Positions 1,327-30,096 are shown, numbered from the stretch's first letter. The stretch is 35,466 bases of DNA from Acidobacteriota bacterium (GCA_024641545.1 JAHECW010000038.1:1-35466), one strand, 5' to 3'. Numbers and translations: made by a program. Notes: generated by a model from the letters alone, not told the origin.

Positions 1327-2513
1327 CGGTCGTCCCCCATCAGCTTCAGATTGCGATCGATGAGCTCGATCCGCTGGCGGACGCACGCGGCCGAGGTCAG
1401 CGGATCGGGCGGCGTGTTGACGCAGTAGTCGACCAGCCGCTCCACCGTGGTCGTCGCGACGTGGCAGCGGGTGTCGGACGAGGCGTAGTAGATGAACAAC
1501 GCGCCGTCGCCCCGGGCGATCCAACCACAGGAGAACGCGACGTTCATGACATCGCCGACCGACTCCTCGCCCGCGGGCGCCACGAGATAGCCGCCGGGCT
1601 GGCGGATCACCCGCCAGGGCTCTTCGAGATCGGTCATGAAGGCGTAGAGCACATAGCGCAGGCCCGACGCCGTGCCGCGCACCCCGTGCGCGAGCTGGAG
1701 CCAGCCCTCGGCGGTCCTGAGCGGCGCCGGACCGAGCCCGTTCTTGACCTCGGTGATGGTGTGGTAGGCGCGGTCGTGGACGATGATCTCCTCATCGATC
1801 ACCGCCTCCTCGATACTCTCCGACAGCCCCCATCCGATGCCGCCACCCGAGCCGGCGTCGATGAACCCGTCCTGCGGCCGGGTGTAGAAGGCGTACCTGC
1901 CGTCGACGAACTCGGGGTGGAGCACCACGTTGCGCTGCTGGGGGGACGGCGTCTTCAGGTCGGCCAGGCGCTCCCAGGTGACGAGGTCGGAGGTCCGCGC
2001 GATACCGCACTGCGCCACCGCCGACGAGAGATCGCCGCGGCGCGCCATCGGGTCCCTGCGTTCGGTGCAGAACAGGCCGTAGATGTGGCCGTCCTCGTGC
2101 CGGACGAGGCGCATGTCGTAGACGTTGACATCCGGGTCGGCGGTCTCGGGGAGCACCACCGGCCGATCGCGAAAACGAAAGTGGTCGATGCCACTGTCGC
2201 TCTCGGCGACCGCAAAGAAGCTCTTGCGGTCCGCACCCTCCACTCTGGCCATGAGGACGAACGCGCCGTCGAGCTCCATGGCGCCGGGGTTGAAAACGGC
2301 GTTGACCCCGATCCGCTCGAGGAACCTCGGATTGCTCCTCGGATCGAAGTCGTAGCGCCAGAAGGGCGGCGCGTGGGCGGCGGTCAGCACCGGATACCGC
2401 CACCGTTGGATGACCCCGTTGGTGCGACGTTCGCGCTCGTTCGGCCGCGCCACCAGCCGCTCGTAATCGTCGATGACCTCGCGCCGGCGTTCGTCGAACT
2501 CCTGGATCCTCAT
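1323..2513 (-). CDS. GH130 4-O-beta-mannosyl-glucose phosphorylase
   Basis: A 396-residue cytoplasmic protein without a signal peptide. It resembles GH130 subfamily 1, which uses phosphate to split 4-O-beta-D-mannosyl-D-glucose into mannose-1-phosphate and glucose. Supporting motifs are FNPGA (residues 74-78), RVEGADRKSFF (90-100), AVAESDSGID and DVNVYDMRLV, where Asp133 matches the general acid of the Bacteroides fragilis enzyme, followed by HEDGHIYGLFCTER. The start is the ATG at 2513, because it forms an ATGA overlap with the stop of the upstream epimerase. Its neighbour makes exactly the disaccharide this subfamily consumes, which supports the subfamily call over the mannosyl-GlcNAc phosphorylases (GH130_2). 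Exact substrate remains inferred. Confidence 0.88.
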   Translation of the reverse strand: MRIQEFDERRREVIDDYERLVARPNERERRTNGVIQRWRYPVLTAAHAPPFWRYDFDPRSNPRFLERIGVNAVFNPGAMELDGAFVLMARVEGADRKSFFAVAESDSGIDHFRFRDRPVVLPETADPDVNVYDMRLVRHEDGHIYGLFCTERRDPMARRGDLSSAVAQCGIARTSDLVTWERLADLKTPSPQQRNVVLHPEFVDGRYAFYTRPQDGFIDAGSGGGIGWGLSESIEEAVIDEEIIVHDRAYHTITEVKNGLGPAPLRTAEGWLQLAHGVRGTASGLRYVLYAFMTDLEEPWRVIRQPGGYLVAPAGEESVGDVMNVAFSCGWIARGDGALFIYYASSDTRCHVATTTVERLVDYCVNTPPDPLTSAACVRQRIELIDRNLKLMGDDR

Positions 2514-3724
2514 GGTGTGGCTCCGCCGGCGCCACCGAGACGCCGGATCATCTCCAGACACATCCGTACGCTGTGGTAGGGGCCCTTCCACTCCGAGACC
2601 TTGGGCTCACGGGTGTCCACCGCGCCGTCCGCACGCACCCGCCAGAACCACTCACCGTGGGTCCGGTCGACGATGTTGCGGTCGATGAAACCCCAGCTCG
2701 CGGCGGCCGCGTCGGCAAATCCGCTCGCCCCGGTCAGCCCGAAGACGTGCCAGAACCCGACCACCGCTTCGGCCTGACACCACCAGTCGTGGTCGCCGTT
2801 GACCACCGCACCGTCGCGGCCCTCGTAGGCGATCCCGCCGGCGCCGTCCATCCCCCGGGCCAGCACCGATCCGGCAAGCTCGACCGCCCACCCTTCGACC
2901 ACCGCCCGCACCCGGGAATCCGCGAGCACCTCGGCCGCCTCGCCGAGCAGCCACGCGGCCTCGATGTCATGACCGAAGGTGCGGCTGTCGGAGCAGCGAT
3001 GCCACTTTTCGTCGAAGAAGTGGTGCAGGTGCCGGTCGGCGGGGTCTCGGCTGAGGATGTGCCGACCAAAAATCGCGATGAGCTCGCCGAGCCGCGATGC
3101 GACGCCGGGGTCCGGCGTCGCGCGGGCGAGATTGGTGAAGCCCTCGACCAGGTGGAGGTGGGTGTTCATCGACTTGGCCGCGTTCATGTCCTTGTCCGAC
3201 AGCCGGAGGTCGCCGATCTCGGACCAGTCTTCGGCGCGGGCCTCGATGTAGCCGCCGAATCGATCGTCGTGGGCGTGGGCGTCGATCAGCACGAATGTCT
3301 GCCGCGCCAGCTCGAGCGCCGTCGGGTCGCCGGTGGCGCGGTGAAACTCACTCAGGGCATAGATGCAGAAGGCCTGGCCGTAGATCTTCTTCGACCGGTC
3401 GAGGGGGCGTCCGTCGGCATCGACCCGCCAGAAGTACCCGCCGCGCTCGCGGTCCCGAAACGCCGATTCCAGGACGTCGAACGCGCGTCGCGCCAGGGCG
3501 AGGTCGCGAACGTCGCCGAGCTCCCGATACAGCGCCGAGAAGGTCCACAGGAGGCGGGAGTTGAGGATCAGCCCGCGCGCCGCGTCCGCGCGCACGACGC
3601 CGTCCGAGGACATCTCACCGATAAAACCGCCGCGTTCGTGGTCGGGGCTCCGATCACGCCAGAACGGCAGCAGATTGTCTTCGAGCTCGCTCGCGATGGC
3701 CCGACGAAGCGCCTTCGGGTCCAT
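2510..3724 (-). CDS. AGE-family cellobiose/mannobiose 2-epimerase
   Basis: A 404-residue (alpha/alpha)6-barrel protein. It is closer to cellobiose 2-epimerases than to N-acylglucosamine 2-epimerases: it has GLILNSRLLWTFSALYR (residues 51-67), RLSDKDMNAAKSMNTHLH (174-191), FGHDIEAAWLL (250-260) and WWCQAEAVVGF (314-324). The three catalytic-type histidines are His189 or His191, His252 and His384, with spacing like that of the characterised Rhodothermus enzyme. The expected reaction is beta-1,4-mannobiose to 4-O-beta-mannosyl-glucose in the cytoplasm, feeding the adjacent GH130 gene. The gene starts four bases after the symporter stop, so the two are co-transcribed. Length is normal for the family. 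Confidence 0.88.
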   Translation of the reverse strand: MDPKALRRAIASELEDNLLPFWRDRSPDHERGGFIGEMSSDGVVRADAARGLILNSRLLWTFSALYRELGDVRDLALARRAFDVLESAFRDRERGGYFWRVDADGRPLDRSKKIYGQAFCIYALSEFHRATGDPTALELARQTFVLIDAHAHDDRFGGYIEARAEDWSEIGDLRLSDKDMNAAKSMNTHLHLVEGFTNLARATPDPGVASRLGELIAIFGRHILSRDPADRHLHHFFDEKWHRCSDSRTFGHDIEAAWLLGEAAEVLADSRVRAVVEGWAVELAGSVLARGMDGAGGIAYEGRDGAVVNGDHDWWCQAEAVVGFWHVFGLTGASGFADAAAASWGFIDRNIVDRTHGEWFWRVRADGAVDTREPKVSEWKGPYHSVRMCLEMIRRLGGAGGATP

Positions 3725-3728
3725 GACC

Positions 3729-5564
3729 TCAGTCGGCCTCGAGCCTGTCGTACCAGTTTTTCTTGAGGAAGATCATCGTCACGACCACGATGGCGGCGGC
3801 CACGGCCGCCGGCACCCACCGCATGAGCACGAAGTAGATCGGCAGCACCACCAGCGCGGTCTGCCAGACGACGCCGACGACGATGTTGACCATGTCCCGC
3901 TTGAAGTTGGTGTTGCGCCGAAAACCGGGATTCTCCGCCTCGACCAGGCGCCGGATGGGTCCCCAGAAACCCCACGGCCGCACCGTGCGGTAGAACGACT
4001 TCAAGGTCGCCTCGTTGGTGGGTTCGGTGAGGAAGGTGCCGACGATGCAGCCGACCAGCGAGATCGCCATGAGGTGCGGGAAGTAATAGAGCGGCAGCAC
4101 GGTCGGCCACACGATCGGGGCCGCGAGGGCCGGGACGATGCCCGCCACCATCCCCCAGAAGTAGCCGTAGCCGTTGAACCGCCACCAGTACCACTTGAGC
4201 ACGTTCGACGACAGGTAGGCGCCCCACAGCGCCGACACGATCCACTGCAGCATGTTGTTGACGTTCTTGGCGTAGAACCCGAGGACGATGCTGACCACGA
4301 CGATGAGCAGACCGCTGGCGTAGTTGACGACGACGGTGCGGCGCTGCGACGCGTGCGGATCGATGTACTTGTGGTAGAGGTCGTTGACGACATAGGCCTG
4401 GGCGGCGTTGAGGGTCCCCGAGAAGGTCGACACGAAGGCCGCGGCGAGACCCGCGAGCAGCAATCCGGTGAAACCGGCCGGAACGAACTCGTTGATCGCC
4501 GACGGCAGGATCTGCTCGAAGTCGATCTGGCCGCCGACGACGAGATCGAGCCGGTGGTAGAACAGCAGCCCGAGCACCACGAACCCGGTGATCATCAGAT
4601 AGCGCGACGGGCTCAGCACCAGGCTGACGAAACCGCTCATGAGCGCGCCTTCGCGCGGGGTCCGGGTGGCGAGAATCTTCTGCATGTCGTAGTTGGGCGC
4701 CGGACCCGCCGCGCTCACCAGGATTCCCTTGAAGACCATCATCATGAAGAAGACGGTGAAGAGCGAGAACTGGTCCGCGGCGATCTTCTGGTTGACCTCG
4801 GTGATGATCCCCGTCCAGTCGAGATCGAGCCGCCAGCCGAACCAGGGGCTCATCCAGCCGTCGGGCACCACCAACGGGTTGGCCGCCAGCGCGGTCATGG
4901 CGATCACCGCCACCACCACCGCCGAGATCGTCATGATGGTGTACTGCAGGACATCGGCGAGGACGATGGACCGCATCCCGCCGAGGATCGTGTAGGCCAC
5001 CGCCGCGAGGGTGAAGACGATGCCGTAGATGTGCGGCACGAACTCGGGCGCGACGTGGATCCCGAGGTACGGCTGGATCGCTTCCCAGGGGAGAAAGATC
5101 TCGACGAACTTGCCGAGCCCGACAAAACCGTAGGCGAGAAAGCCGAGCCCGCCGATGAGGGCGAAAACGACCACGACGGTGTGCGACAGCCGGGCGCCGA
5201 CGCCGGTGCCGAAGCGGGTCTCGATCCACTGCGCGCCGGTGGTGACGTTCGATCGCCGCAGCCAGGCCGAGAGGTAGACCATGAGGAAGACCTGGTTGAA
5301 GGTGGGCCACAGCCAGGGCAGCCAGATCGCCTTCAGCCCGTAGACGAAACCGATGGTGACCAGCCACATGGTGCCCGAGATGTCGAACATCCCCGAGGCG
5401 TTGGACAAACCGAGCATGTACCACGGAATGTCCTTGCCGCCGAGCAGATACGACTCGACGCTCGCGGCCGCGCGTTTGCGCATCGCAAAACCGATGGCGG
5501 TGACCGCGACCAGGTAGACAGCGATGATGGTCAGATCGAGAGCCGTCAGTTGCAGTGATGCCAT
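3729..5564 (-). CDS. sodium/solute symporter (SSS family), probable oligosaccharide importer
   Basis: A 611-residue polytopic membrane protein of the SSS (SLC5-like) family with many hydrophobic helices from residue 10 to the C-terminus. It should import a sugar or short oligosaccharide with sodium across the inner membrane. The start ATG follows an AAGGCGA ribosome-binding site. The C-terminal third holds FYRTVRPWGFWGP, a motif shared in part with the second symporter of this locus, so the two are related. Because the epimerase follows after only four bases, beta-mannobiose or a related manno-oligosaccharide is the likeliest cargo. This assignment rests on context, as SSS sequence alone does not give substrate. 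Confidence 0.85.
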   Translation of the reverse strand: MASLQLTALDLTIIAVYLVAVTAIGFAMRKRAAASVESYLLGGKDIPWYMLGLSNASGMFDISGTMWLVTIGFVYGLKAIWLPWLWPTFNQVFLMVYLSAWLRRSNVTTGAQWIETRFGTGVGARLSHTVVVVFALIGGLGFLAYGFVGLGKFVEIFLPWEAIQPYLGIHVAPEFVPHIYGIVFTLAAVAYTILGGMRSIVLADVLQYTIMTISAVVVAVIAMTALAANPLVVPDGWMSPWFGWRLDLDWTGIITEVNQKIAADQFSLFTVFFMMMVFKGILVSAAGPAPNYDMQKILATRTPREGALMSGFVSLVLSPSRYLMITGFVVLGLLFYHRLDLVVGGQIDFEQILPSAINEFVPAGFTGLLLAGLAAAFVSTFSGTLNAAQAYVVNDLYHKYIDPHASQRRTVVVNYASGLLIVVVSIVLGFYAKNVNNMLQWIVSALWGAYLSSNVLKWYWWRFNGYGYFWGMVAGIVPALAAPIVWPTVLPLYYFPHLMAISLVGCIVGTFLTEPTNEATLKSFYRTVRPWGFWGPIRRLVEAENPGFRRNTNFKRDMVNIVVGVVWQTALVVLPIYFVLMRWVPAAVAAAIVVVTMIFLKKNWYDRLEAD

Positions 5565-24770: not shown

Positions 24771-24873
24771 CGGGTTGAAGCCGGGCGCCGTGCGAGTGTG
24801 TTCAGTTACGGCGGGAAAGGTTCAGGGCGAGTCCGCATCACGGACCGCGACCCGCCGTTACGCAGCCAACCCG
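24771..24873 (+). ncRNA. nested hairpin element, possible structured leader RNA (family unknown)
   Basis: Three perfect stems nest inside each other. The outer stem is CGGGTTG (24771-24777) with CAACCCG (24867-24873). The middle is ACGGCGGG (24808-24815) with CCCGCCGT (24851-24858). The inner is GTCCG (24831-24835) with CGGAC (24841-24845) around loop CATCA. It lies 82 bases before the ATG of a small secreted protein and after pckA. Parts recall the GGGAA and CCCGCC boxes of cobalamin riboswitches, but no B12 box is present. It could be a riboswitch-like leader, a terminator complex or chance structure in GC-rich DNA. The strand is assigned by the direction of the flanking genes. Confidence 0.4.
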
Positions 24874-24954
24874 TGCGCTGAGGGAGAAGGGGGCAGGAGC
24901 CGGCGGCGTCCCGGTCGAACCGACCCTCATCGATCTCACGGAATGGGGTCAGGC

Positions 24955-25176
24955 ATGCGTTTTTCATCGACTCTGCAGATCCTTGTCGTTGCGTTGCTGG
25001 CGATGACGGCACCCGGGGCGGGGGACCTCGATCCCGTCGCCACGATCCAAGGGGCCGCGACCCAACTCTTCACCCCGTGGGGCCTTGACGGCCCGAAATC
25101 CGACGCGCTGATATTCGCCGAAGGATTCGAGTCCGGCAGCACCGCGGAGTGGTCCGAGGCTTCCATCGCACGCTGA
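24955..25176 (+). CDS. small exported protein with FESG motif
   Basis: A 73-residue frame with a clear signal peptide (MRFSSTLQILVVALLAMTAPGAG) followed by a short mature part that ends LIFAEGFESGSTAEWSEA plus four residues. The D/E-GFESG-T-x-W-S pattern recurs in secreted proteins of environmental Acidobacteriota and Proteobacteria, usually next to a longer domain. Here the frame stops right after the motif, so it may be a real small protein or the truncated start of a larger one. No strong ribosome-binding site is seen. No function is assigned. Confidence 0.45.
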   Translation: MRFSSTLQILVVALLAMTAPGAGDLDPVATIQGAATQLFTPWGLDGPKSDALIFAEGFESGSTAEWSEASIAR

Positions 25177-25549: not shown

Positions 25550-27541
25550 ATGATGTCCGGTATCCGGAAACCTGCGACTGTGATGTTCGTGTGGATCATC
25601 GCGCTCTCGTTGACCTCGTTCGGCGCCGAGACCCCTGAGACCGAATCGTTCGCCGGTCTCTCGATCGAGGACCTGATGCAGATCAACATCAGCGTGGCCT
25701 CGCTCAGCGAGGAGAGCATCCTCGACACGCCCTCGATGGTCACCATCATCGACCGGCAGATGATCCAGGAGTACAACTTCCAATCGGTGGCCGAGGCCCT
25801 CAATCTGGTGACCGGGATGTCGGTTCTCCGCACCTATCTCAAACGGGATCTCCCGACCGCCCGCGGGGTGCTCCAGGACCACTACGCCAACAAGGTGCTG
25901 ATCCTGATCAACGGCGTCCCGACCTGGATGGCGGTCACCGGCGAGGGAGCGCTGCAGAGGGTCGACATCCACGATGTCGAACGAATCGAAGTTCTCAAAG
26001 GCCCGGCCTCGGTGCTGTACGGCACCAACGCCTATGCCGGCGCCGTCAACATCGTGCTCAGGGACTCGCTTGAAACCCGCCCGGCGGTGCAGATGGGGAT
26101 CGCCGAAAACCTCGGATTCCGCGCCGGCGGCCACTACGTCGGCGATCTCGGCGTCAAACTTTTTCTCGCCGCGAATGCGGTGGAAGACAACGGCCAGGAC
26201 TTCACCTTCGTTGACGAAGGTGGTCATGCGGGTATCGTCGATCAGTACGTCAACACCAGGAACTTCACCGGCCAGGTCACCTCGAAGCACCACTCCGCTA
26301 TGGTCAACGCCTACGCGGTGGACGAGAGCTATCTCGGCGTGACGCCGAACTTCTCCGCCGGCGCCGGCAAGAACCACCTGCTCGAAGGAGTTCTCGCCAA
26401 CTACACCTTCTCTTCGGCGGTCGGGAAATCCATCAATCTCGACGCCGGCCTCACCTACGATTGGAACACGCGCGACCTCTCCCGGTCGGCCGACGACGTC
26501 GTCCGCGCGAGCATCGAAGGCGCCCGCCTCCAGCTCTTCGGCAAGGCGATCTTCACGCTGTCCGAGCGCTGGAACCTCGAAGCCGGAGTCGATCTCGAAC
26601 GACGCGAGAGCATCGAGTACCGCAACTACGACGCCCTCACCGGCGAGACCCTGGAAGACAACAACATGAAAAACCGCCGGGTCGACGAGTACTCGGGGTT
26701 CGCCCAGCTCGGCTACCACGCCCCCCGATTCCGCATCGTCCTGGGCACACGCTACACCGACAACGAGCTGTTCGGCGGTGATCTCTCGTCGCGCGCGACC
26801 TTCATGTTCAAGCTGAGTCAGAAGAGCTCGATCAAGCTCAACGCAGGCCAGTCGTACCGCGTGCCGTCGCTCTTCGAGCTCTACTTCCAGACGCCGACCA
26901 ACACGGTCTGGGGGAACACCGCACTCACCCCCGAGCGAAACGACACCATCGAGCTCGCCTGCCTCGGGTCCTTCGGCAACCTGTTCCTCGAAGCCCTCGC
27001 CTACCACGCCGACTACACCGACAGGATCTTCCGCACCCGCCGATACCCGAACTTCGTCAGCGATCCGACCGACACCTCGACGATCTACGTCAACGGCGAC
27101 ACCTTTTCGGCGGACGGTTTCGAGCTCACCCTCCGTTACCAGCAAGCGCAGGGGGTCAGCGCGTTCGTCAACTACGCCTACACCGACGGCGACGCCGGTG
27201 ACCGGATCGAAGGCACCGATCACTACAATTTCAAGTACATCCCGGCGCACAGCATTGCGGGTGGGCTCGCCTTCAAGGTCAAACGATTCCTGGTGTCGGG
27301 GGTCGTCACATACCTGTCAAGCGTCGAGGGACCCATCGAGCCCATCGGCAGTCAGGTCACCTTCGACCTGAACCTCGGCTTCCGCCATCGCCTCGAATCC
27401 GTCGGACTCCGGCACTACCTGTCGATCAAGAACGTGGCCGACGACGAGGTCGAGATCCCCGAGTACGTGCGGCGGAGGATCAACGACGTCCCGTCGGGCT
27501 ACGGCCGGCGAATCTCGTACAACATTCAGCTCGAGTTCTAA
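25550..27541 (+). CDS. TonB-dependent outer-membrane receptor
   Basis: A 663-residue receptor; ATG codons at 25550 and 25553 both follow AGGGAG. The signal peptide ends near residue 26 (SLTSFGA). It is followed by [16 protein letters not shown] and [15 protein letters not shown], then the plug domain (about 55-165) with [34 protein letters not shown]. The remainder is a 22-strand-type barrel ending in Phe. There is no carboxypeptidase-like N-terminal domain, so it is not SusC-like. It belongs to the group whose mature N-terminus has an LSIEDLM element, often found near YfiR-like proteins and signalling genes. The chemoreceptor gene follows ten bases downstream. Ligand is unknown. Confidence 0.9.
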
Positions 27542-27551
27542 AGGTGACCAC

Positions 27552-29468
27552 ATGATCGACGCCACATCCACCGGGCTGAATCCCGGTGGCCTCCGCAGCC
27601 GGTTCGGGGCGCAGACGATTCGACAGAAGCTGTTTATCGGGGCCCTCGGGGTCATGGTGTTCTGCACCGCGGCGAGTTCGATTCTGCTCTGGTTCACGCT
27701 CAGATCAGTATCGAACGCCAACCTGCAGGCGGTCACCCGCAACGCGACGTCCACCGCTGCGTCCGCCATCGAGGATGTGCAGCGGAGGATCTCCGGCTAT
27801 GCCGACTCGCTGGCCAGGCGATCGGAAATCGCAATCGCGGTTTCCGGAGGCAATAGCGAGGCCCTTCGGGAGGTCCTCGTCCCGGAGTACGAATCGCTCA
27901 AACGCCTGGATCAGTCGGTGACCTCCCTCGAGGCGACGTCGCGGTCAGGTGCGATGTTGATGCGCGGGCAGGCGCCCGATCAGCGGGGGGGTGACCCGCT
28001 CTCGATCGCCGCGGTCCGAGGGGCCCTTGACGGGCGACCGACGATCAATCTCGCCACCCCCAAGAACGGCGAGCAGTTGGCGTTTTCGGCCGTTGCTCCT
28101 CTGATGTTCGCCGATATGGTCGTCGGCACGATCGGGGCCGGCAGCGCCCTCGGAGAGGAGACCGCGGGTTACATCCGGGAAAAGACGGGTGCTGAAATCG
28201 CCTTCATCGTCGGCGGGACGGTGCGGGCATCGACGATGGCCGGCGCCGACGGCGCTCGGTTGCAAAATGGCGATGCCGTGCTGAACGACCTCAGCCGAAA
28301 AGACGGGTTTCAGCGGTTGGAGTCCGTCGACGGCCACCGATATCAAGTGGGTTTCGTCCCCCTTCGATCGGATGACAATCGGATCGTTGCGGTGATGGCC
28401 GTCTATGTGTCGCGCAAAGAGGTGGAACACACCACCCGGATGGCCGTGATGAGGTATCTCGGACTCCTCACGGCCTCGCTGCTGGTCATCGCGTGGGTCG
28501 TTGTGAGGTTGTCGAATCGTTTCGCGGAACCGGTTGCGACGCTGTCGAACATGGGTCTTCGGGTGGCCGAGCGCGATCTCCGACCGATCGCCGTCGGATC
28601 CGTCGGCCGTGACGAGATCGGACGTTCGGTGATCGGAATGTCGACCGCGATCGACGGTCTCCGCAATGCGATCAAGACCATCGCACAGCACTCGCTGGAA
28701 CTCGGGTCGGCTTCACGAGACCAGGCCTCCGTGAGCCGGAGAATGCTCGAAGACGCCGAAGCCACGGCGAACGAAGTGACCCAGGTTTCCTCCGCCGCTG
28801 AAGAGGTGAGCGCGAACATGAACTCTGCGGCGACGGCCGTCGATGAGATGCATGCCAGCGTGGCGGAGATCGCGCGAAACTCGACCGATGCGGCGATCGT
28901 CGCCCAGTCGGCGGTCAGGGTCGCGTCCGAGACCACCGAGATCATCAACTCGCTGGGGAGAAACAGCCAGAAGATCGACAAGATCGTTCAGATCATCACC
29001 TCCATCGCCGAGCAGACCAATCTCCTCGCGCTCAACGCCACCATCGAGTCGGCGCGGGCGGGGGAGGCCGGGAGAGGTTTTTCGGTGGTCGCCGACGAGG
29101 TCAAGAAACTCGCCCGCCAAACGGCGGACGCAACCGGAGAGATCGAGCAGCAGATTCAAGCGATCCAGTCCGATTCAAAGAACGCGGTCGAGGCGATTGC
29201 GGGTATCAGCTCGACGATCGACCGGATCAGCGAGGTCCTCCAGACCATCGCGACCGCGGTCGAGCAGCAGACCGCGACCACGGCCGAGATCGGCAGCAGC
29301 GTTGCGGAAGCCGCGCGCGGAAGCAGCGAGATCGCCCAGTCCATCGCCAACCTCTCGCTCCGCGCGACGGAGACCGAGGCGACCGCCGAGCGCACGCGCA
29401 GTAACGCCGCCGGACTCGATGATCTCGCCAGGGGGCTGCAGGAACTGGTCGACGGCTTCAGAACCTGA
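27552..29468 (+). CDS. methyl-accepting chemotaxis protein with periplasmic Cache-type sensor
   Basis: A 638-residue transmembrane chemoreceptor. TM1 is at about 27-50, a periplasmic sensor of about 250 residues looks like a Cache domain, TM2 is at about 301-320 and a HAMP domain at 321-373. A long coiled coil follows, whose tip (485-510) carries the conserved [21 protein letters not shown] and [15 protein letters not shown]. It should signal to a CheA/CheW complex. No che, flagellar or pilus gene is in the window and no C-terminal CheR-docking pentapeptide is seen. An AAGGTGA ribosome-binding site sits in the ten-base gap after the TonB receptor, so the two are one transcript. Confidence 0.92.
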
Positions 29469-29495
29469 TTGCCATCCCGAGCCGTCGTCGCGCCG

Positions 29496-29541
29496 CAGCC
29501 CCGCGGCTGGCGTTTTCGAAAACCGGGCGCTCAGCGCGCCC
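29496..29541. terminator. hairpin cluster between convergent MCP and YfiR-like genes
   Basis: Three symmetrical units follow one another: CAGCC/GGCTG around CCGC (29496-29509), the 12-base palindrome GTTTTCGAAAAC (29512-29523), and GGGCGC/GCGCCC around TCAGC (29525-29541). The cluster lies between two converging stops. It is probably a bidirectional terminator, though U-tracts are short. Confidence 0.45.
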
Positions 29542-29556
29542 GATCGAGGCGAGCCG

Positions 29557-30096
29557 TCAGTTCACCACCTCGCCGAGCGCGAGAAGCTCCGGTGCGAATC
29601 GGAGCCCGCTGGCCTCTGCCGCGCTCGGGTTGACTTCGAACCGCACGAACTCGCCATCGGTGACGAAGTTGATCATCGAACCCCGTTTCGCGTAGCCGCG
29701 CGAATCCGAGACGACGAGCACCGGTTTCCGAGCAACGGTATCCACGATGGCGCGGAACGCGTCCGGGCTTCCGGGACCGACAAAGACCACGTTGCACGCC
29801 GGCGCCTGATCGGGTGTGTCGATCCTGCGAACCTCCAGCCGCTTGCCCTTGACCTTCGATTTCGCGGCGATCCGGCCGAGCGCGTCGAACACCGCTTCGC
29901 GATCCCTGACGCAGATGACGAAGGGAGTCGAGGCGTCACTGACCGAAGACCCGGAAGGCCACTCGATGAACCTCGTAAATCGTTCGAGGAACTCGGACTC
30001 CAGGGTCGCGACGAGATCCTGAGCGGACGCCGGCGGCGCGACCGCAGCCACCACCACAACCACCAAGATGCAAGGGAGGAGTCGATGTGTGTTCAA
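29557..30096 (-). CDS. YfiR-like (DUF4154) periplasmic protein
   Basis: A 179-residue protein with a signal peptide (1-25, ending PASAQ) and the DUF4154 pattern: ESEFLERFTRFIEWP, FVICVRDREAVFDAL, GKRLEVRRI, CNVVFVG, VLVVSDSRGYAKRGSMINFV, VRFEVNPSAAEASGLRF. YfiR of Pseudomonas is a periplasmic repressor of a diguanylate cyclase. Relatives are often encoded near TonB receptors and sensor proteins. The start is TTG, with GAGGT five bases upstream and no usable ATG nearby. It converges on the TonB receptor-MCP operon and may modulate its signal. No GGDEF partner is present in the window. Confidence 0.85.
   Translation of the reverse strand: MNTHRLLPCILVVVVVAAVAPPASAQDLVATLESEFLERFTRFIEWPSGSSVSDASTPFVICVRDREAVFDALGRIAAKSKVKGKRLEVRRIDTPDQAPACNVVFVGPGSPDAFRAIVDTVARKPVLVVSDSRGYAKRGSMINFVTDGEFVRFEVNPSAAEASGLRFAPELLALGEVVN

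Follow-up and report, generated by a model that had tools for sequence, protein, structure and literature searches.

Among the closest described systems is YfiBNR of Pseudomonas aeruginosa, in which YfiR represses YfiN (TpbB/YfiN) through the periplasmic PAS domain of YfiN and the outer-membrane protein YfiB sequesters YfiR (PMC4655355; PMC3375315). Malone et al. 2012 presented Yfi as a modular system from which YfiB is usually missing at greater distance; many Yfi systems have no outer-membrane partner YfiB, and the domains of methyl-accepting chemotaxis proteins (MCPs) are named among the replacements for GGDEF in divergent Yfi systems (PMC3375315). The word TonB does not occur in the text of that paper. 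OmpS, a TonB receptor of Alcanivorax, is reported to be the alkane sensor that triggers chemotaxis, and TOL_0244 resembles OmpS (PMC6304351, PMC9788540).

The locus analyzed here lies in a window of 35,466 nucleotides (the whole stretch of DNA that was analyzed, contig C89 of genome G000), which belongs to a 5.38-Mb draft genome of an Acidobacteriota bacterium, 99% complete. The features of the locus, numbered from the first base of the window, are the following.

25550..27541, + strand: TonB-dependent outer-membrane receptor (Pfam Plug 9e-22, beta-barrel 2e-29; 73% identical orthologue in genome G002)
27542..27551, + strand: intergenic gap of 10 bases with the Shine-Dalgarno sequence AGGTGA for the MCP gene, read from the sequence; equal gap in G002
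27552..29468, + strand: methyl-accepting chemotaxis protein of 638 aa (MCPsignal PF00015, 4e-35)
29469..29556, no strand: convergent intergenic region of 88 bases between the MCP and YfiR-like genes, with GC-rich hairpins of ordinary stability
29557..30096, - strand: YfiR-like periplasmic protein of 179 aa, DUF4154 (PF13689; Pfam 3.2e-37)

An earlier note on this DNA had placed the TonB receptor and MCP genes ten bases apart, with a ribosome-binding site between them and a gene for a DUF4154 periplasmic protein facing the pair; both descriptions hold, and Pfam confirms the genes. The spacing suggests that the receptor and the MCP are co-transcribed. The YfiR-like gene converges on the MCP gene, with the stops 88 bases apart, and requires a promoter of its own because it is on the opposite strand; its TTG start has GAGG upstream. 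No T-run terminator was found in the 88-base convergent region, and a convergent terminator or structured RNA at this position was rejected on the ordinary stability of the sequence (z-score -1.6). The window contains no tRNA. A small ORF without a Pfam match, at 24775-25176 on the + strand, terminates in 'IFAEGFESGSTAEWSEASIAR', similar to a short motif at the tail of some secreted proteins. The genome as a whole has one DUF4154 gene, six MCPs and 20 Plug domains above cut-off, so that a TonB-MCP-YfiR triple is improbable by chance.

Genome G002, from a different species of the same genus, has the same three genes in the same order and orientation and with the same 10-base gap, which there contains GGAGG. 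Between the two genomes the proteins are 73% (TonB receptor), 68% (MCP) and 63% (YfiR) identical; by part, the MCP is 58% identical in the sensor and 77% in the signalling half. The dN/dS ratios (NG86, whole genes) of about 0.22-0.28 indicate purifying selection. On the 17 kb of the G002 contig there are no relatives of the other window genes, and G002, like the genome of the window, has a single DUF4154 gene. Since only these three genes are common to the window and that contig, and the flanks differ, TonB-MCP-YfiR behaves as one unit, as the earlier note had proposed, and the neighbourhood recurs beyond the level of strains. The full layout was found in two genomes only among those searched; in the scan of genome contigs for the MCP sensor, which used just two peptide patterns and was therefore narrow and of limited recall, the G002 contig was the sole match. 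The genus also includes G001, where YfiR instead adjoins a CHASE8 histidine kinase and the MCP sensor has no match. The same-family genomes G001, G003 and G008 all have CHASE8 beside their DUF4154 genes. The restriction of the layout to two genomes, together with the position of YfiR on the opposite strand, could be taken to mean that the three genes are merely neighbours with no common function. However, the block has been kept at 63-73% identity between different flanks, and a DUF4154 gene beside a TonB receptor is the rule in the phylum, as described below; we consider mere proximity highly improbable.

The likeness to YfiBNR consists of a DUF4154 regulator joined to an inner-membrane transducer with a periplasmic PAS-like fold, and of matching hydrophobic residues in YfiR. 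The two differ as follows: a TonB receptor is found here where YfiBNR has the OmpA-like lipoprotein YfiB (no gene for such a lipoprotein occurs among the scanned neighbours), an MCP with a dCache_3-like sensor stands in place of a GGDEF cyclase with CHASE8, and yfiR is on the other strand. With the Yfi-MCP systems of Malone et al. 2012 (PMC3375315) the locus shares a YfiR with MCP output. In those systems, however, the MCP replaces GGDEF behind a YfiN-type PAS-HAMP, whereas here the PAS has been replaced too; the YfiN-type (CHASE8) PAS plus HAMP transducer by which a Yfi module is recognised is absent from this locus.

The TonB receptor (663 aa) has a signal peptide, a Plug at about 58-165 and a barrel at about 247-663, and both Plug PF07715 and barrel PF00593 score above the Pfam cut-off. 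Pfam detects no STN N-terminal signalling domain in it, which sets it apart from the FecA-type receptors of sigma/anti-sigma systems. Sigma/anti-sigma signalling through this receptor was ruled out on the lack of an STN extension. What it shares with the FecA/FecR/FecI transducers is a TonB receptor tied to signalling, but neither STN nor a sigma/anti-sigma pair is present. The earlier note had regarded a TonB receptor dedicated to an MCP instead of such a pair as unusual. The receptor is indeed not of the sigma/anti-sigma kind, but a closer comparison had been overlooked: TonB-YfiR-transducer groups, normally with CHASE8 kinases or GGDEF proteins, are widespread in the phylum, and Yfi systems with MCP outputs had been mentioned before (PMC3375315).

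The TOL_0243/TOL_0244 pair of Thalassolituus also combines a YfiR-like protein with a TonB receptor. Against the NCBIfam model TOL_0243 (NF053591, cut-off 125 bits) the G002 YfiR passes with 128.1 bits, whereas that of the window is just under the cut-off with 119.7. The receptors score far below the 645-bit cut-off of the TOL_0244 model (NF053590), at 95 bits in the window and 115.8 bits in G002. A further difference from this pair and from OmpS is that no alkane genes were seen beside the module.

The surroundings of YfiR were compared more widely by searching for DUF4154 in 60 relatives, in the class (149 genomes) and in 396 genomes sampled from the phylum, and by scanning the neighbourhoods with profiles built from the loci; a transducer within 600 bases was counted as adjoining. 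A CHASE8 transducer, either a histidine kinase or GGDEF, adjoins 107 of 124 DUF4154 genes (101 CHASE8 proteins of kinase or other type and 6 CHASE8-GGDEF). No recognised transducer lies within 600 bases of YfiR at 14 of the 124 loci, and an MCP adjoins only 3. For a sample of nine CHASE8 neighbours, Pfam confirms CHASE8-HAMP and kinase or GGDEF-EAL domains. TonB receptors occur within 3.5 kb of YfiR in 99 of 124 loci, some of the others being cut by contig ends; the chance for a random gene is about 3%, as estimated from the 20 Plug domains of the window's own genome only. A TonB receptor with YfiR and a transducer is a common module in this phylum, of which the version with an MCP as output is rare. 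The frequent position beside YfiR suggests the TonB receptor as a candidate for the missing outer-membrane input of Yfi. The present locus resembles the Acidobacteriota clusters of TonB receptor, YfiR and CHASE8 kinase or GGDEF in having receptor, regulator and inner-membrane transducer together; it differs from them in that the transducer is a dCache_3-like MCP, in a genome without CHASE8. A minimal survey of other phyla showed that the module extends beyond the Acidobacteriota: on a Sphingobium plasmid, yfiR stands in one run of genes with those of a TonB receptor and a protein that binds ATP.

Two other arrangements were seen in the phylum. At L090 (G420:C8, 3800-12100) a tandem TonB-YfiR-TonB-YfiR is followed by a single CHASE8 histidine kinase, as if one kinase were fed by two receptors. 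At L072, L118, L078 and L071, YfiR-TonB pairs have no adjoining transducer. The starts of the genes beside these four pairs look similar to threonine dehydrogenase and glycine C-acetyltransferase, which might point to a ligand connected with amino acids.

The MCP begins with TM1 (about 27-51), followed by the periplasmic dCache_3-like sensor (about 52-298), TM2 (about 301-319), a HAMP-like linker and the signalling hairpin; the TM segments were assigned by eye. The match to dCache_3 is below cut-off in the window (7e-5) and above it in the G002 orthologue (8e-7). An AlphaFold model of the sensor, made from two sequences, had a mean pLDDT of 50 and was not used in fold searches. Pfam finds no CHASE8 in the window MCP, none occurs anywhere in the genomes G000 and G002, and hhalign detects no profile similarity between the MCP sensor and CHASE8 (probability 0.5%). 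A CHASE8 domain hidden in the sensor was considered and rejected: hhalign gives merely a 12-column match (E 0.12), with 'ENSVADLAFGDR' on the CHASE8 side. By a correspondence that we guessed, the motif with which YfiN binds YfiR, 'AAVVF' (PMC3375315), may lie in this stretch of CHASE8. The match was taken as chance because its position in the MCP is the 'aPl...vvG' hairpin of the Cache domain. With no CHASE8 in either genome, YfiR is without a recognisable YfiN-type partner in these cells. Since the MCP sensor has no similarity to CHASE8, the known binding mode of YfiR is not simply transferable, and the gating by YfiR that the earlier note had put forward as a possibility is conjectural: the MCP has no YfiN-type domain, the one known to be inhibited by YfiR.

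Sensors of the dCache type are known to bind ligands directly. The MCP might itself bind the ligand imported by the TonB receptor, and YfiR, making no contact with the MCP, might then regulate or assist the receptor or be left over from an ancestral CHASE8 system. The lack of CHASE8 similarity in the sensor points in this direction, as do the tight TonB-MCP operon with YfiR on the other strand and the YfiR-TonB pairs that have no recognised adjoining transducer, because of which YfiR could be acting on the receptor alone. There is a parallel in Xanthomonas, where the ferri-siderophore linked to the receptor XfeA is bound by MCPs (PMC8549721). What speaks against such a role for YfiR is its retention in the block under purifying selection though neither genome has a CHASE8 partner, and the fact that YfiR sits nearly always with a transducer across the phylum. 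We regard direct sensing by the MCP alone as rather unlikely.

The YfiR-like protein has a Sec signal peptide, read from the sequence (...PPASA, cut before Q), and matches solved YfiR structures. Its residues V151, F153 and L174, as well as those of the G002 protein, correspond to the hydrophobic positions 160, 162 and 183 of PAO1 YfiR, which have been proposed to bind YfiN (PMC3375315). The MCP-linked YfiRs of the window and G002 depart at four to five of five positions at which YfiRs linked to CHASE8 are conserved, including K33 to E, whereas 104 of 106 CHASE8-linked YfiRs have two departures at most and the other two have three or more; the five positions were chosen after seeing the data, and the two MCP-linked sequences are sisters that represent one lineage. 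This combination of signature departures with kept hydrophobic residues would be compatible with a change of partner in the MCP-linked YfiRs.

The docking of maltose-binding protein on Tar is a model for indirect chemosensing. By analogy, the YfiR-like protein could be a periplasmic binding protein that picks up the ligand released by the receptor and then docks on the sensor of the MCP. YfiR structures do resemble ABC-type solute-binding domains (PMC4655355), and crystals of P. aeruginosa YfiR bind vitamin B6 or L-Trp, but with affinities in the tens of millimolar (PMC4887326). Moreover, there are no transporter genes beside the module and the known YfiR is an inhibitor, and a binding-protein function thus seems improbable.

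A second YfiR-MCP pair, independent of the first, is found in G099, a genome of another family. At this locus (L066, G099:C84) an MCP gene (2210-4141, +) and a YfiR gene (4168-4896, -) are convergent at 27 bases. The sensor of this MCP is CHASE8-like (3e-7 with our own profile, 0.02 with Pfam), and L066 fits the description of Malone et al. better than the window does. The contig stops 281 bases past the YfiR gene, before a TonB receptor could appear. On the YfiR tree the link to an MCP must have arisen at least twice, although the G099 row sits on a long branch. Two HAMP matches are also present in the G099 MCP. MCP outputs of Yfi had already been mentioned (PMC3375315); what is unusual in the window is the dCache_3-like sensor in a genome that has no CHASE8.

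The signalling half of the window MCP aligns without gaps with the MCPs of C301, a chemosensory cluster of CheA-CheW-MCP-CheY-CheB-CheX, while a second cluster, C75, has an MCP of different length. From this alignment the MCP is predicted to couple to the CheA of C301. FliG (FliG_C) was not found in the 99% complete genome, in contrast to several PilT homologues, so that pili or another non-flagellar output are likelier than a flagellum. The proposal in the earlier note that a signal is sent to chemotaxis machinery is supported by this gap-free match of the hairpin with MCPs that have a CheA cluster beside them, but no flagellar FliG was found. In C75, the MCP at L040 (6678-8327, -) has an unusual domain order, in which the dCache-like sensor lies on the C-terminal side of the signalling domain; next to this MCP are a CheW and a hybrid CheA that includes a receiver domain.

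We give roughly even credence to the reading that the three genes form a TonB receptor-YfiR-transducer module with an MCP as its inner-membrane output, acting on the CheA of C301. The outer-membrane receptor would bind or import a ligand, and receptor occupancy or the periplasmic ligand would alter the free amount or the shape of the YfiR-like protein. This protein would act on the MCP at its dCache_3-like sensor in the periplasm, and the MCP would then control the CheA of the C301 cluster. Motility by type IV pili, or some other function without a flagellum, is the probable output. We infer the contacts of YfiR with the receptor and with the MCP, the direction of signalling and the output. 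Somewhat more tentatively, the locus may represent a Yfi-type system in which the PAS of YfiN and the output have both been replaced, such that a YfiR-like messenger informs a dCache_3 chemoreceptor of the state of a TonB receptor and uptake by a single receptor in the outer membrane steers a non-flagellar chemosensory array. The MCP variant, in a genome without CHASE8, is a natural case for asking whether YfiR works through a sensor unlike that of YfiN, and also whether a chemosensory array can receive information directly from a TonB receptor.
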